Shown here piece by piece: positions 1,498-7,852 of a stretch of 8,531 bases of DNA. Within the stretch, counting starts at the first letter, position 1. Each line of letters starts with the position of its first letter. Below the pieces are notes generated by a model. It worked only from the letters and a program-made list of their open reading frames with translations. It ran no database searches and had not been told where the DNA came from. Location of the stretch: positions 1-8,531 of the forward strand of contig JAGCOI010000240.1 in assembly GCA_017645485.1 (NCBI GenBank), written 5' to 3'. Origin of the DNA: Alphaproteobacteria bacterium. GTDB taxonomy: Bacteria; Pseudomonadota; Alphaproteobacteria; RF32; CAG-239. A program made the translations under genes and the position numbers.

Positions 1498-1514
1498 TAA
1501 AAAGGTTAAAAATT

Positions 1515-1640
1515 ATGAAACAAATGCTAAAATTGTTGCTTTTGCTCGGATTTGTGTTGAGTGTTTCGGCATGCGGTAAAATCTCGGATCCGAAACCTGT
1601 CGAAAACAGCGGCTACCCGCATGTGTATCCGAGAAATTGA
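1515..1640 (+). CDS. 41-residue lipoprotein, LptM/YifL-like
   Basis: The frame encodes a 41-residue peptide with a lysine-bearing N-terminus, a leucine-rich hydrophobic core (residues 5-17) and a lipobox VSAC ending at Cys20, so signal peptidase II should cleave before Cys20 and leave a lipidated 22-residue tail. The tail (CGKISDPKPVENSGYPHVYPRN) has the 'CGxxxxP...YPxxYPR' look of the small lipoproteins that sit beside argH and lysA in many alphaproteobacteria, and resembles E. coli LptM (YifL), which helps assemble the LPS translocon. An AAAAGG ribosome binding site lies 9 nt before the ATG. It ends 10 nt before the VWA gene and is probably first in the operon. Whether it is truly functionally LptM cannot be decided from so short a sequence; the lipobox itself is clear. 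Confidence 0.8.
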   Translation: MKQMLKLLLLLGFVLSVSACGKISDPKPVENSGYPHVYPRN

Positions 1641-1650: not shown

Positions 1651-2340
1651 ATGGACGATACAAACAATATTTCAAATGATATGATTCCCTACGTGGAATT
1701 TGCCGATAATGCCAATGAACGGACACCATGCGTTTTGGTGCTTGATTGTTCGGGCTCTATGCGCGGGGAACCGATTAAACAACTAAACGTCGGCTTGCAG
1801 GCTCTTGAAAAAGAATTGAAAGAAGATATAGATGCCTCATCGCGTGTGCAAATTTTGATTATTAAAGCATGCGGTAAAGAAGATGAGGCTGTTGTGGCGT
1901 CCGATTGGGTTGATGCTATGGATTTTACGGCACCTGTTATGGAAGCCGGCGGCTTAACACCGCTTGGAAAAGCAGTGCATCTTGCCTTGAAAAAAATTGA
2001 AGATCAAAAAGAATTATATGATTCTTGCGGTGTCAGTTCAAAACGTCCGTGGATTTTTTTGGTCAGTGACGGGGAGCCGACGGATTACGGTTGGGAACAG
2101 GCAGCTCAAGAATGTTTGGAAGCGCAAAAAAATAAAAAGGTTATTGTTCATGCTATCGGAACGCAGGGCGCAAATATGGAAAAACTGGCCAAGTTTTCAA
2201 TGATGCCGCCGAAGCGTTTGGTCGGTTTGAAATTTACCGAATTTTTCTTATGGCTCAGCCGGAGTGTTTCGTGCGTTTCAAAGGCTGCGCCGCATGCAGA
2301 TGATTTATTGAAAGATATCAATGCCTGGAATGAAGAATAA
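1651..2340 (+). CDS. von Willebrand factor A domain protein, YegL/TerY-like
   Basis: The 229-residue protein is essentially one VWA domain with an intact metal-ion-dependent adhesion site: DCSGS at residues 32-36, Thr103 in 'GGLTPLG', and Asp140 in 'VSDGEPTD'. No signal peptide is seen, so it should be cytoplasmic. The sequence follows E. coli YegL and TerY closely, including 'PCVLVLDCSGSM', 'RPWIFLVSDG', 'AIGTQGANMEKLA' and the end region 'LKFTEFFLWLS'. Family members act as Mg-dependent protein-binding adaptors linked to a PP2C phosphatase and a kinase. Exactly those two genes follow, the first overlapping this gene by 20 nt. The start is supported by AGAGG 6 nt upstream. The domain is certain; the bound partner is inferred from context. 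Confidence 0.93.
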   Translation: MDDTNNISNDMIPYVEFADNANERTPCVLVLDCSGSMRGEPIKQLNVGLQALEKELKEDIDASSRVQILIIKACGKEDEAVVASDWVDAMDFTAPVMEAGGLTPLGKAVHLALKKIEDQKELYDSCGVSSKRPWIFLVSDGEPTDYGWEQAAQECLEAQKNKKVIVHAIGTQGANMEKLAKFSMMPPKRLVGLKFTEFFLWLSRSVSCVSKAAPHADDLLKDINAWNEE

Positions 2341-3079
2341 TGACACATTTAAGATAGTGGCGGTTACGACCGTGGGTACCTATCATAAAGCAAAAGGCTT
2401 TAGGGGGCAGGATTTTTTTGCCAGCAAGCAAAATAAACGTCGTGTCGTTGCGGTTGTTTCTGATGGTGCGGGTTCTGCCAAATACGGTAAAATAGGTGCA
2501 AAATGTGTGTGTGAAAAAATGTGTGATATTCTCTTGAAAGCGGATTTTACGCAAATACGCCAGAATATTATTAATGCGGTTGATGCAACGCGTGATGAAT
2601 TAATGATACACCGTTTGAATAAAACAAAAGACGAAAACGGATTACTTGATTTTTCGGCAACACTTATAGGTGCGGTCTATCAAGACGGAAAGGGTGTGTT
2701 TTTTCATATAGGGGACGGTGCCGGTATAGCTTTATTTGAAAAGCCAACGCATCAAGCCGTTATTTCGGAACCTGAAAACGGGATTTTTGCGAGTGAAACG
2801 TTCTTTTATACCATGGATGATTGGAAAGACAGTTTACGTTTTACGCCTTTTAACGGTGCCCAAAGTTTGTTTTTAATGACGGACGGAGTGACGTGTTTTG
2901 CCTTAAAAAACAATGAAAATACTTTGGAAAAAGATTTTATCGGGCCTATTAATCGGTTTTTAAGACAGGAAAAAGATACGGCGAGAGCAACAAGAGCATT
3001 GAAAAATACCCTTGAAACACCGAAAGCCTGTCGATTGAGCGCAGATGATAAAACGCTGATGTGGGTAGGCTTAAAATGA
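2321..3079 (+). CDS. PP2C-type serine/threonine protein phosphatase, YegK-like
   Basis: This 252-residue protein carries the metal-binding aspartates of the PP2C family: 'GQD' at residues 29-31, 'VVSDGAGSAKYGKIGA' with Asp48-Gly49, 'IGDGAG' at 131-136, 'LMTDGVT' with Asp188, and a closing 'SADDKTLMWVGLK' with Asp242-Asp243. The motif order matches the short stand-alone phosphatases found next to YegI-like kinases and TerY-like VWA proteins. It should remove phosphate from Ser/Thr in a cytoplasmic setting, most likely from the neighbouring kinase or its targets. The gene starts inside the 3' end of the VWA gene and overlaps the kinase gene through an ATGA. A second in-frame ATG at 2330 is possible and would shorten the product by three residues; the upstream one has a slightly better AAAGA-like ribosome site. 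Confidence 0.92.
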   Translation: MPGMKNNDTFKIVAVTTVGTYHKAKGFRGQDFFASKQNKRRVVAVVSDGAGSAKYGKIGAKCVCEKMCDILLKADFTQIRQNIINAVDATRDELMIHRLNKTKDENGLLDFSATLIGAVYQDGKGVFFHIGDGAGIALFEKPTHQAVISEPENGIFASETFFYTMDDWKDSLRFTPFNGAQSLFLMTDGVTCFALKNNENTLEKDFIGPINRFLRQEKDTARATRALKNTLETPKACRLSADDKTLMWVGLK

Positions 3080-4518
3080 GTGAATTTTTGGTGTATAATG
3101 CTATTTTCGGTGACGGGCATTTTGAACGCATTGCGTTAGGCAATATGCTCAACAAAGGCGGGGCTGCCGGTAAAATATATGCGTGTCCGATGTATCCGGA
3201 TATGGTCGCCAAAATATTTCATGACAGAAGCAAAAGCAAAACCAATCGGCAAAAATTAGAGGCGATGATTCAAAATAAGCCGAATATTCCGATAAGGGAA
3301 GAAAACGGTAAAAAATATGTGCAAATTGCATGGCCGGAAGCCGTATTGGAAGATGATGAAGGTTTTTGTACGGGCTATTTGATGCCTCTTATCAATACAG
3401 ATGAAGCTGTATCTTTAGACCATTTAATGCAAAAAGCGGTGCGCCAGAAAGAGCATTTAAGCGAAAAATATACCGATCGTTTAACGGCGGCCTTAAATGT
3501 TACGGGTATGGTTATGGCTTTGCATCAATGCGGGCATCATATTGTTGACTTAAAACCGGCAAATGTTTCGGTTTATAAAGATAATATGTTTGTGGCTATA
3601 TATGATTGTGACGGTTTTTCAATTAACGGGCAATCGGCAAGGTATCCGGCAGAATTTGTCAGTGAAGAATATATTTATCCGGAAGGTATGCACGAAAATC
3701 CGGAAGATATGGGCGAAGAGCAGGATAAATTTGCGCTTGCCGTGATTATTTTTAAGCTTTTAAATAACGGCATACACCCGTTTTCGGGAACGCTTCGCAA
3801 CAAAGAAGACGAAAAAACGGATATTCAGACACGCATTGAGCAATATCATTATGCGTATGGTATGTGGCCGGATAAATATCAGGCACCGCATCCGTACAGT
3901 ATGCATGAGTATTTCGATAAATCAACGCTTGATATGTTTGAAAGAGCGTTTTCAAAAAACGGCAAAAGGCCGACGGCAAAAGAATGGTTTCAACATTTGA
4001 ACTATTTGGGTACAATATTACAACCGTGCAAAAAAGATAAAAATCACGTCTATTTTACAAACAAAGGTTGCGGCTTGTGTGCGGTGGAGCAAAAATTTAA
4101 ACTGAAGCTGTCGGATGTTGCCAAAGAAAAACAAGAACAACAAAAAGTCAGAGGGTTCGGCATAAGTAATTTAACAAGCGAAAAAACGCGAACTTTCAAG
4201 CAGATGAAACAACAAGCATTAAACAGGTTAAATAAATTGGCCGTATTGTTGTGTGCGGTGCATTTGGGTTTGTGGACCATATTGCCGATTTATGTTGCGA
4301 AATTCAAAGATGTTGTATCATCACGAGGATATTTTTTACAGTTGTTGGTCGGTGTTTTAATCTTAAAAGCGGTGTTTGTTTTTTTAAATAAAATGCAAAC
4401 GTTTTTACCGTTGTTACAAAATGCGGCACTTTTATATATGCTTAAATTATATGCCGTATTTAATGCGGTTGTTTGCTTTTTTGTTGTAAACGGTATCGGT
4501 TGGACATTGCTCAGGTAG
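3076..4518 (+). CDS. Ser/Thr-kinase-like protein with Zn-knuckle and C-terminal membrane segments, YegI-like
   Basis: The 480-residue product begins with a protein kinase domain (about 20-315): glycine loop 'GGAAGKIY' (28-35), ATP lysine Lys46 in 'MVAKIF', catalytic 'IVDLKPANV' with Asp158 and Asn163, and metal-binding 'YDCDGF' with Asp177, in place of DFG. The HRD arginine is a valine, as in other non-RD kinases. Next comes a Cys/His group (Cys318, His324, Cys332, Cys335) resembling a zinc ribbon, a charged lysine/glutamine-rich stretch (340-387), and hydrophobic segments at about 388-408, 418-438 and 449-475. E. coli YegI carries a helix-hairpin-helix region instead, which I do not see here. 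The ATG at 3076 forms an ATGA overlap with the phosphatase stop, so I prefer it to an upstream in-frame GTG at 3061. Kinase activity is inferred from conserved residues; the substrate is unknown. Confidence 0.9.
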   Translation: MSEFLVYNAIFGDGHFERIALGNMLNKGGAAGKIYACPMYPDMVAKIFHDRSKSKTNRQKLEAMIQNKPNIPIREENGKKYVQIAWPEAVLEDDEGFCTGYLMPLINTDEAVSLDHLMQKAVRQKEHLSEKYTDRLTAALNVTGMVMALHQCGHHIVDLKPANVSVYKDNMFVAIYDCDGFSINGQSARYPAEFVSEEYIYPEGMHENPEDMGEEQDKFALAVIIFKLLNNGIHPFSGTLRNKEDEKTDIQTRIEQYHYAYGMWPDKYQAPHPYSMHEYFDKSTLDMFERAFSKNGKRPTAKEWFQHLNYLGTILQPCKKDKNHVYFTNKGCGLCAVEQKFKLKLSDVAKEKQEQQKVRGFGISNLTSEKTRTFKQMKQQALNRLNKLAVLLCAVHLGLWTILPIYVAKFKDVVSSRGYFLQLLVGVLILKAVFVFLNKMQTFLPLLQNAALLYMLKLYAVFNAVVCFFVVNGIGWTLLR

Positions 4519-6666: not shown

Positions 6667-7551
6667 TTATTTATATCTTATCATCACTTTGTTTTTTTTG
6701 CCGCTGACCATATTGGCTTCTTCAACGGTATAGATGCGTTTGTTTAAACGATTGCCGTATGTTGTCATCAAGTTTCCTTTATTATCATAAACATAAGTCA
6801 TACCGTTGACTTTTTTTGTTGTTGTCGGGATGGTCGAAAGATTAGTATAACCTGCGGCGGCAAGATTGGCATTGCACTGAGCCGTATCTCCCATGCAATA
6901 GATTTTAAGGTTGTCTAAATCAACCCTCATTTCTTCATCATAAAAGCTAAAAATTTTTCCCAAATCTGTTTGGTCGCTGATAACAAGGGTTTGTAATTTG
7001 GTGCAATGACTTAATGCTATATAACCTATAGACTGAACACTGTCCGGAATAACAAGTTCTTGAAGATTTGTGCCGCGAAAAGCCCCACCTATTGTTTGAA
7101 CAGAATCGGGAATGTCAATTTTTTGAATAGATGACCAATTAAATGCTTGATATCCAATTGATGTGACGGTATTTGGAATAATAACTTCAGATGTATTAAC
7201 GCCATAAAATGCACAGGTACCGATATCGGTTACGGAATTTGGGATTTTAATCGGGTTTTCACTTTTAATTGATCTAAATGCATAATTTCCCAAATCTTTA
7301 ATACCTTCTTCAATCACAACATTTTTAACACCTTTTCCTCGCCATGGCGCAAGAGTGCCTGTATCTTGATCCCAACTGCCGATATTGCCGTTATCTCCGA
7401 CAGGTCTAATTGTGAGGGTGCCTTTATCATCAATTTCATATTCGCAATTAGCTGTTTTTCCTGTATTATCCGTACCGCAAGCCGTCCATGCCTTTGCTTC
7501 AAAAGAAAAAGCCATGAACGCCATCAATAAAATAAAACTTTTCTTTTTCAT
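6667..7551 (-). CDS. exported BspA-like leucine-rich-repeat protein
   Basis: The 294-residue protein opens with KKK and a hydrophobic segment ending in EAKA (residues 18-21), a clear Sec signal peptide with cleavage expected before Trp22. A short region with Cys25 and Cys36 ('WTACG...NCEYEIDDKGTLTI') leads into about five BspA/LRR_5-type repeats (about 74-195), each with a pattern like 'IPxSVTxIGxxAF'. A Cys219-Cys226 pair follows, then a tail containing 'TYVYDNKGNLMTTYGN', which resembles a single YD/RHS-type repeat. Such repeat proteins are usually surface or secreted and bind other proteins, but the ligand cannot be inferred. GGGAG 7 nt upstream fixes the start at 7551; an in-frame ATG at 7572 lies in the U-tract of the upstream terminator and is unlikely. 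It lies directly downstream of the structured RNA on the same strand. Confidence 0.88.
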   Translation of the reverse strand: MKKKSFILLMAFMAFSFEAKAWTACGTDNTGKTANCEYEIDDKGTLTIRPVGDNGNIGSWDQDTGTLAPWRGKGVKNVVIEEGIKDLGNYAFRSIKSENPIKIPNSVTDIGTCAFYGVNTSEVIIPNTVTSIGYQAFNWSSIQKIDIPDSVQTIGGAFRGTNLQELVIPDSVQSIGYIALSHCTKLQTLVISDQTDLGKIFSFYDEEMRVDLDNLKIYCMGDTAQCNANLAAAGYTNLSTIPTTTKKVNGMTYVYDNKGNLMTTYGNRLNKRIYTVEEANMVSGKKNKVMIRYK

Positions 7552-7558
7552 TTTTCTT

Positions 7559-7563
7559 CTCCC
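7559..7563 (-). promoter_or_regulatory. ribosome binding site of the repeat-protein gene
   Basis: On the minus strand GGGAG lies 7 nt before the ATG at 7551. It follows the terminator U-tract by only about 10 nt, so transcripts must pass the terminator before this site can be used, unless another promoter lies within the RNA region. Confidence 0.7.
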
Positions 7564-7573
7564 AAAAATCATT

Positions 7574-7599
7574 AAAAAAGACCGCCCTTGAAAGAGCGG
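7574..7599 (-). terminator. intrinsic terminator of the structured RNA
   Basis: On the minus strand CCGCTC (7594-7599) pairs with GGGCGG (7582-7587) across a 6-nt loop, six pairs including one G-U, and is followed by TC and a run of six T (7574-7579). This is a standard rho-independent terminator. It lies 23 nt before the start codon of the repeat-protein gene. Confidence 0.8.
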
Positions 7600-7816
7600 A
7601 CGGAGAGTTCGAAAATCACATGTAGCGAAATGACTCCGATGGCCTTTGGGATAAATCCTTGAACATTCGCCATCGGCTCCCCGACCTTATATCGGGGATA
7701 ATGTGCTATTTAAAATAAAAATAGCACCCATACGGTGTTACCCATCACCGCGCTACATCAAAGCCTTCGACAGCTCCGCGCCCAACCAAGGCACTAAACG
7801 GATATTAAATCCATCT
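7574..7816 (-). ncRNA. structured RNA of unknown class, about 240 nt
   Basis: This gene-free stretch is visibly richer in G and C than its surroundings and is dense with complementary segments. An 8-bp helix (7620-7627 with 7751-7758) closes a junction holding four hairpins: 7636-7643 with 7669-7676 (8 bp), 7678-7684 with 7692-7698 (7 bp), 7703-7711 with 7719-7727 (9 bp) and 7733-7737 with 7746-7750 (5 bp, stacked directly on the closing helix). The other side has two smaller hairpins (7763-7767 with 7788-7792, and 7800-7803 with 7809-7812). A promoter-like pair upstream and a strong terminator downstream both point to the minus strand, giving an RNA from about 7816 to 7574. I see none of the fixed motifs of RNase P RNA, SRP RNA, tmRNA or the common riboswitches. 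It may be a free RNA or a leader of the repeat-protein gene. Confidence 0.65.
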
Positions 7817-7823
7817 GAAATAT

Positions 7824-7852
7824 ATTGTGCCATAAGAACGGGTTAAAGTCAA
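7824..7852 (-). promoter_or_regulatory. candidate promoter of the structured RNA
   Basis: Read on the minus strand, TTGACT (7847-7852, five of six consensus bases) is followed after 17 nt by CACAAT (7824-7829, four of six). Transcription would begin near 7816, just ahead of the first small hairpin. Spacing and position fit the proposed RNA well. Confidence 0.5.

Follow-up and report, generated by a model that had tools for sequence, protein, structure and literature searches.

A widespread pseudoknotted leader RNA of Alphaproteobacteria that probably acts as a riboswitch-like switch

What is encoded on the minus strand of a gene-free stretch that is packed with hairpins and ends directly before a gene? 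This question is raised by positions 7574–7816 of contig JAGCOI010000240.1 (assembly GCA_017645485.1), 8,531 nucleotides (nt) of DNA from an alphaproteobacterium of the GTDB lineage CAG-239, which in its whole length is called the window in the following. A first-pass annotation made from the sequence alone had described a compact multi-helix RNA at this locus. The structured RNA was retained by our analysis and the view of a lone RNA gene was given up, as the element turned out to be a repeated leader close upstream of a gene. With a probability of roughly 0.6, we regard it as a widespread structured leader RNA directly before a surface-protein gene, which likely switches transcription via folds that either permit or prevent a terminator. 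The RNA is called a switch mainly because two sets of helices, P4 with a closing helix and P5, are both kept and yet mutually exclusive. Judged from sequence comparison, it is probably a cis-acting, riboswitch-like element.

The position relative to genes was evaluated for 200 distinct copies, 13 of which had no called downstream neighbour. The downstream gene was codirectional in 172 of 187 cases (92%), compared to 111 of 186 for the upstream gene, and the start codon followed the core of the RNA at a median distance of 50 nt in AT-rich copies and of 52 nt in GC-rich ones. By position, the RNA is located in the 5′-leader, as riboswitches are, and due to this gene association a free-standing small RNA (sRNA) gene was rejected as the main explanation. 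Folding of positions 7830–7568 yielded −99.1 kcal/mol (z = −5.8), an energy reached by none of 200 shuffled sequences. The opposite strand scored z = −5.3 as well, so that folding energy alone does not decide the strand; the minus strand was chosen because of the codirectional downstream genes and the terminator. The promoter-like sequence, the hairpins, an 8-bp helix and the terminator that had been annotated on this strand were all located in the sequence.

Compensatory changes in homologues had been proposed as a check of the RNA, and many were found in its helices. For the genus alignment, 55 of 68 BLAST hits were used, while 13 weak, truncated or cut ones were dropped. From these 55 copies, RNAalifold predicted 57 pairs, and compensatory changes were seen in 39 of these. 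A structure of 56 pairs defined by us, with one helix set in pseudoknot brackets, was paired in 96.6% of the alignment cells, compared to 85.2% after shuffling and at most 44.9% when the partners were slid, and it contained 430 double-change cells versus 123 in shuffled alignments, whereby these controls leave the relatedness of the sequences in. The strongest covariation of all helices was found in the 8-bp helix, which had been taken for a closing helix around the hairpins. The helix is present, but it is a pseudoknot and no simple closing stem, because its 3′ strand sits in the loop of the conserved hairpin P6. In this pseudoknot b, ATGTAGCG (7751–7758) pairs with CGCTACAT (7627–7620); 100% of the cells are paired at the 7 pairs counted, all 7 pairs vary, and 183 double-sided changes (5 sequences at one pair, 25–35 at the remaining six) occur with none broken in the 55 sequences. 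Despite the relatedness of the sequences, this many changes without any break would be hard to explain otherwise.

Beyond the genus, an alignment of diverse cores was built from 100 of 158 distinct cores passing a two-ended pattern; it contained 367 double-change cells compared to 108 after shuffling. A further alignment comprised 49 of 53 GC-rich copies and describes the typical GC-rich form, since L021, L207 and two L099 copies were excluded as divergent. Here, 400 double changes versus 121 in shuffled alignments were counted for a structure with four crossing elements, including both pseudoknots and kissing 5′ and 3′ hairpin loops. The local hairpin P2 and the nearly invariant P5 were each paired to 100%. 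Pseudoknot a, which connects the P2 loop with the strand preceding P5, was paired to 99.5% (28 and 21 double changes at two unbroken pairs), an H-type pseudoknot at P3 to 83.9% and 89.5%, and the weaker pseudoknot b, reaching into the P6 loop, to 76.7% with many gaps. Hairpin P5a contains a conserved AUGUCCA/UAAAG internal loop; for the internal loop, a likeness to 11-nt tetraloop receptors was considered. The kissing interaction involves the 5′ hairpin loop and a GCGG-GGGCGNA-CCGC hairpin preceding the start codon; its single varying pair is C-G in 43 copies, U-A in 6 and broken in 0, its two neighbours do not vary, and no more than 22 of 49 copies form the outer pair.

The evidence for switching comes from a strand, GGUCGGGGAG, that has two exclusive partners: it forms P4 with a CCCCGA-like strand located upstream, or P5 with CUCYCCGACC further downstream, and both pairings are kept family-wide. 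P4 with at least 5 bp was detected in 72 of 75 copies of loci L001–L072 (a set mostly, not exclusively, from the genus, which contributes 65 of 76 copies), in 50 of 65 other AT-rich and in 59 of 59 other GC-rich copies, compared to 34–38% of shuffled sequences. For P5, 8 or more of the 10 pairs were formed in 57 of 65 genus copies, 71 of 75 other AT-rich and 59 of 60 other GC-rich copies versus 12–22%. Within the genus, P4 plus the closing helix and P5 are each well paired as mutually exclusive sets. An intrinsic terminator was found in 69 of 73 (L001–L072), 53 of 63 (other AT-rich) and 7 of 58 (other GC-rich) copies, with 7%, 5% and 4% after shuffling, respectively, and combined in 122 of 136 mostly AT-rich copies. 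In 115 of these 122, the 5′ arm of the terminator begins within the 3′ strand of P5, the commonest overlap being 4 nt. GTGTTAT..ATAACAC, considered as a second terminator in the middle of the RNA, was dropped after the consensus pairs had been read by eye.

In the proposed mechanism, P4 and the GGAG/CUCC closing helix would leave the terminator intact (off), and the full P5 would take the first bases of the terminator stem so that RNA polymerase would read through (on). The balance between P4 and P5 would be set by a signal of the cell, with a small molecule as the likeliest candidate, around which the core would fold. In the GC-rich relatives, the terminator is mostly replaced by the hairpin near the start codon that kisses the 5′ hairpin loop, so that the same core would there more likely act on translation.

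In the window copy, all parts lie on the minus strand. The predicted promoter (7824–7852) consists of the −35 sequence TTGACT (7852–7847) and, after 17 nt, the −10 sequence CACAAT (7829–7824) preceded by TG. Hairpin P1 (7796–7816; 7816–7809 with 7803–7796), also found in the 55-copy consensus fold, marks the predicted 5′ end and is followed by hairpin P2h, GTGCCT/GGGCGC (7778–7794), paired in 97.2% of the cells with double changes at 4 of 6 pairs. The closing helix of GGAG (7774–7777) and CTCC (7605–7602), an alternative to P5, is paired in 94.5% of the cells; one of its pairs is A-U in 26, G-C in 17, G-U in 6 and otherwise composed in 5 sequences of the genus alignment. Pseudoknot a joins TCGA (7767–7770) and 7612–7609 and is paired in 87.7% of the cells; three of its pairs show 24, 18 and 18 double changes. 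The hairpins P3, CGGTG/CACCG (7733–7750), and P3b, GTGCTAT/ATAGCAC (7703–7727), are paired in 99.6% and 89.5% of the cells, P3b with 19 double changes at one pair. P4, formed by CCCCGA (7692–7697) and TCGGGG (7684–7679), is nearly invariant and paired to 98.8% in the genus. It is incompatible with P5, in which GGTCGGGGAG (7677–7686) pairs with CTCTCCGTCC (7607–7598), with one U-U mismatch in the window copy and 89.4% of the cells paired in the genus. Hairpin P5a, CCGATGGC/GCCATCGG (7636–7676), is paired to 99.5% with double changes at 8 of 8 pairs; it carries the conserved internal loop ATGTTCAA/AAAG, and the ATGT, CA and AAAG columns are invariant in the 55 BLAST-found genus copies. Hairpin P6, GTCAT/GTGAT (7615–7634), whose loop contains the 3′ strand of pseudoknot b, is paired to 98.9% in the genus and to 81.1% in the 100 diverse copies, where 4 of its 5 pairs carry double changes.

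The 3′ strands of pseudoknot a, the closing helix and P5 together occupy 7598–7612, and the base of the terminator CCGCTCTTTCAAGGGCGG plus TCTTTTTT (7574–7599; stem 7599–7582) shares 2 nt with the end of P5. The downstream gene (6667–7572) encodes a BspA-type leucine-rich-repeat surface protein (PF13306, LRR_5, E = 6.5e-39); its probable start is the ATG at 7551 after GGGAGAAG (7563–7556), and another in-frame ATG is located upstream at 7572. On the plus strand of the window, three overlapping genes (1651–4518), named by eye, encode a von Willebrand A-like protein with a MIDAS-like DCSGSMRG motif, a phosphatase of PP2C-like appearance and a protein that resembles Ser/Thr kinases and has membrane helices at its C-terminus, a set reminiscent of a compact signalling operon.

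Several observations speak against the proposed transcriptional switch. The P5 pairs overlapping the terminator are those least kept in the genus (30, 43 and 49 of 55), and the window copy has its U-U mismatch in just this part of P5 together with the overlap of only 2 nt; for these reasons, P5 may achieve only weak antitermination, or the true mechanism may be a different one. When folded without pseudoknots, the window copy favoured the terminator state, with −44.0 kcal/mol compared to −37.7 kcal/mol with P5 forced. As the bases of P4 and P5 are nearly invariant, the two states are inseparable by covariation. Moreover, P5 was subject to a selection bias: most of its 5′ strand was prescribed by a 29-nt search pattern, and the extraction of cores required a P5-like 3′ strand, which inflates the 98.2% pairing of P5 in the 100 diverse cores; less biased measures are the BLAST-found genus set and the count of copies that form 8 or more of the 10 pairs. 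The terminator test was likewise passed by the 7 of 58 GC-rich copies. Also, promoter support is modest and limited to the AT-rich copies. A promoter score of at least 9 of 12 was reached by 80 of 135 AT-rich copies (mean best score 8.8 versus 8.2 shuffled), and in 38 of these 80 the −10 sequence ends 145–159 nt before the core (window: ~137 nt); no promoter signal was seen in the GC-rich copies (6 of 58). Finally, the downstream genes share no common metabolic pathway and therefore suggest no ligand.

How widespread the RNA is was determined by sequence and model searches. With a BLAST-type search, the window's own genome yielded 4 copies, and 23 of 57 genomes, own included, had matches; some of the weakest matches are due to chance, such as L026, which has no model match. 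The 29-nt core pattern was present in at least 115 stretches of named records and in 6 viral contigs; the taxa include Rhizobium, Shinella, Agrobacterium, Methylobacterium, Paracoccus, Ochrobactrum and Acidocella aminolytica, a Rickettsiales metagenome-assembled genome (MAG), many rumen and gut MAGs, and Acidobacteria such as Granulicella rosea. From the 100-core alignment, the covariance model R1 was built for the 90-nt core, which by construction matches many pattern loci; it matched 114 of the 115 named-record stretches and 6 of 6 viral ones. L174 gave no match and L106 a marginal one (E 0.004), the match in L103 is an end fragment of 30 nt, and L082 is cut by the contig end. In whole genomes, R1 matched 84 of 101 of the family; in the class it matched 47 of 385, and in the phylum 27 of 398 (8 outside the class); four family genomes carried at least 42 copies each, and the window's own genome had 8 matches. 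Blastn with an RNA-containing query retrieved 362 plasmid records. Of these, 280 come from Agrobacterium or Rhizobium, and 265 are conjugative by their typing; most matches span only part of the query at 60–80% identity.

Individual copies showed further features. In genome G402, two tandem cores (L211:1382–1465 and 1501–1585, minus strand) lie 35 nt apart, reminiscent of tandem riboswitches, and at L067 (2509–2596 and 2825–2912, minus strand) two successive RNA copies are each followed by a short open reading frame (ORF) of their own. A divergent core at L186 (6564–6684, plus strand; 53.9 bits) has a longer stretch from P5a to the end of P5 and could be a distant subtype. The leader region of L090 contains a run of N upstream of the core (~2690–2735, plus strand), which makes the 5′ hairpins unreadable. 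In L007, L045 and L049, all from genome G002, the sequence downstream of the RNA is near-identical into the pilin-like starts, which suggests that leader and gene were duplicated together.

Regarding the genes behind the RNA, 31 of 65 downstream proteins of L001–L072 were BspA-type leucine-rich-repeat proteins; pilins, outer-membrane and Rhs-repeat proteins were also found. In a wide Pfam scan, 91 of 102 proteins were considered after 11 doubtful or repeated ones had been dropped by eye; they comprised pilins, outer-membrane proteins, glycosyltransferases, helix-turn-helix and AraC regulators, PF10074 in 5 cases, which we take to be DUF2285 under its newer Pfam name, and TraM in 2. One copy is located on plasmid pTiC58 between traH and traM and precedes traM (51.9 bits); it has the same architecture, with compensated P5 pairs as read by eye. 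PMC3907764 describes TraM as the antiactivator of TraR, which regulates conjugation. A copy in Ketogulonicigenium precedes a 96-residue DUF2285 protein, a domain which in PMC10359603 is that of the antiactivator QseM. A search for QseM-like proteins in viral contigs gave 33 pattern matches and confirmed no relative. From these positions we infer that the leader may control conjugation. Also on pTiC58, the Rfam sRNA Atu_Ti1 (RF02506; L223:1348–1439, minus strand) lies inside the annotated traB on the opposite strand.

Clustering of the neighbours revealed no regularly adjacent protein gene; the largest clusters were pilin-like and surface-protein-like genes, spurious ORFs overlapping the RNA, and site-specific recombinases (9 loci at varying distances). 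Tentatively, and at slightly less than even odds, all copies could belong to one class-wide riboswitch with a single pseudoknotted sensor, which would act through a terminator in AT-rich and a kissing start-site hairpin in GC-rich genomes, and whose one signal would set surface adhesins and pilins in gut alphaproteobacteria and, in bacteria of soil and plants and also on the Ti plasmid, the brakes on conjugation in the form of TraM and QseM-like antiactivators.

Concerning the signal, proteins with a GGDEF domain were found in 25 of 29 genomes and none in G013, a genome estimated as 100% complete with 13 RNA copies, which disfavours cyclic di-GMP (c-di-GMP). RelA/SpoT was present in 19 of 20 genomes tested; as the sole exception is the window's own incomplete genome, guanosine tetraphosphate is uninformative as a candidate. 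The same leader could alternatively respond to an RNA-binding protein or the ribosome on the conserved core, like ribosomal-protein leaders. A large, highly conserved pseudoknotted core before unrelated genes fits such a general binding factor, and Hfq occurs in 18 of the 20 genomes. However, neither CsrA nor ProQ was detected in any of the 20, 11 of which (the window's genome and ten of the genus) all carry the RNA, so that control by either of these proteins is disfavoured, and no protein gene regularly adjoins the RNA, though a trans factor need not do so. We consider a protein signal unlikely, yet worth keeping in mind.

A promoter-like sequence and strong terminator in AT-rich copies, together with the dispersed multicopy pattern, would also suit a chiefly trans-acting sRNA that is transcribed and terminated next to genes that are mere neighbours. 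This is quite improbable given that 92% of the genes are codirectional and only tens of nt away, with scant space for a second promoter, and that GC-rich copies mostly have no terminator and a conserved hairpin immediately ahead of the start codon. Compact pseudoknotted folds can bind polymerase, and the RNA precedes genes of many kinds, as might be expected from a processive antiterminator or stability element with constitutive action on RNA polymerase or mRNA and no sensing. Such an element would leave unaccounted for why a terminator is conserved within the AT-rich form and mostly absent from the GC-rich one, with the P4/P5 competition kept in both, and is very improbable. Many dispersed copies per genome, the frequent occurrence on plasmids and the 6 viral contigs recall a selfish repeat, for example a miniature inverted-repeat transposable element or the guide RNA of a nuclease system, that landed upstream of genes by accident. 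This origin is hardly credible in view of the orientation and spacing to genes and the compensatory changes kept class-wide; moreover, no IscB/TnpB-type nuclease or transposase was present among the Pfam families listed (25 of 30 in one set of adjacent proteins and 25 of 45 in the other, with 156 proteins in total).

The leader switch as proposed above has not been described as far as searched. With the covariance models of Rfam 15, the gathering score was reached neither at the window RNA nor at its counterparts in 24 relative loci, in line with the annotated absence of a recognised class. The single hit overlapping the window RNA was HTT-AS1_3 with 22 bits versus a threshold of 70, and the above-threshold hits in the relative loci (tRNA, 6S, ar15 and Atu_Ti1) sit elsewhere. 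Marker motifs of 6S RNA, signal recognition particle (SRP) RNA, RNase P and tmRNA had not been visible in the sequence either; none of these families gave a model match, and the RNA is in addition multicopy and gene-associated. No description was found in the literature searched, which comprised open-licence papers, and term look-ups in PMC8632094, PMC10359603, PMC10469942, PMC3738593, PMC3907764, PMC2864571, PMC6341043 and PMC11109978 gave none either. A large, strongly conserved and probably regulatory RNA of a much-studied class, located even before traM of pTiC58, is missing from Rfam 15. If the proposed reading is true, one signal would govern what gut bacteria display on their surface and, in rhizobia and agrobacteria, the transfer of plasmids, and many genes would gain a predicted common regulator. 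More than 100 loci in named records are available together with a covariance model and two natural outputs, which makes signal and mechanism directly testable.

Among candidate RNAs, the Rhizobiales-1 motif is given in a table of Weinberg 2010 (PMC2864571) as an RNA of Rhizobiales without Rfam accession, and differs from our RNA in being listed as doubtful and not cis-regulatory. It perhaps lies outside the Rfam scans and may conceivably be the same RNA.

Compared to riboswitches with terminator or ribosome-binding-site-masking platforms, the RNA has the 5′-leader position, a conserved covarying core, exchangeable 3′ outputs and multiple copies in common with them, and its mutually exclusive helices may likewise link core and output; it differs in that its downstream genes define no pathway and no Rfam 15 riboswitch is matched. 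In the cobalamin riboswitch, a core loop forms a long-range kissing interaction with a hairpin loop near the ribosome-binding site. A long-range kissing near this site is also found here, but it connects the 5′-most with the 3′-most hairpin, and no Rfam match exists. The GEMM-I and GEMM-II riboswitches, which bind c-di-GMP, are multicopy and located upstream of pilin, adhesin and mobile-element genes. Neither their sequence nor their structure was matched through Rfam by the window RNA or by the copies in the 24 relative loci, and G013 with its 13 copies has no GGDEF hit; with the GEMM riboswitches, however, the RNA shares the spread of targets over pilins, surface proteins, regulators and mobile elements as well as the high copy number.
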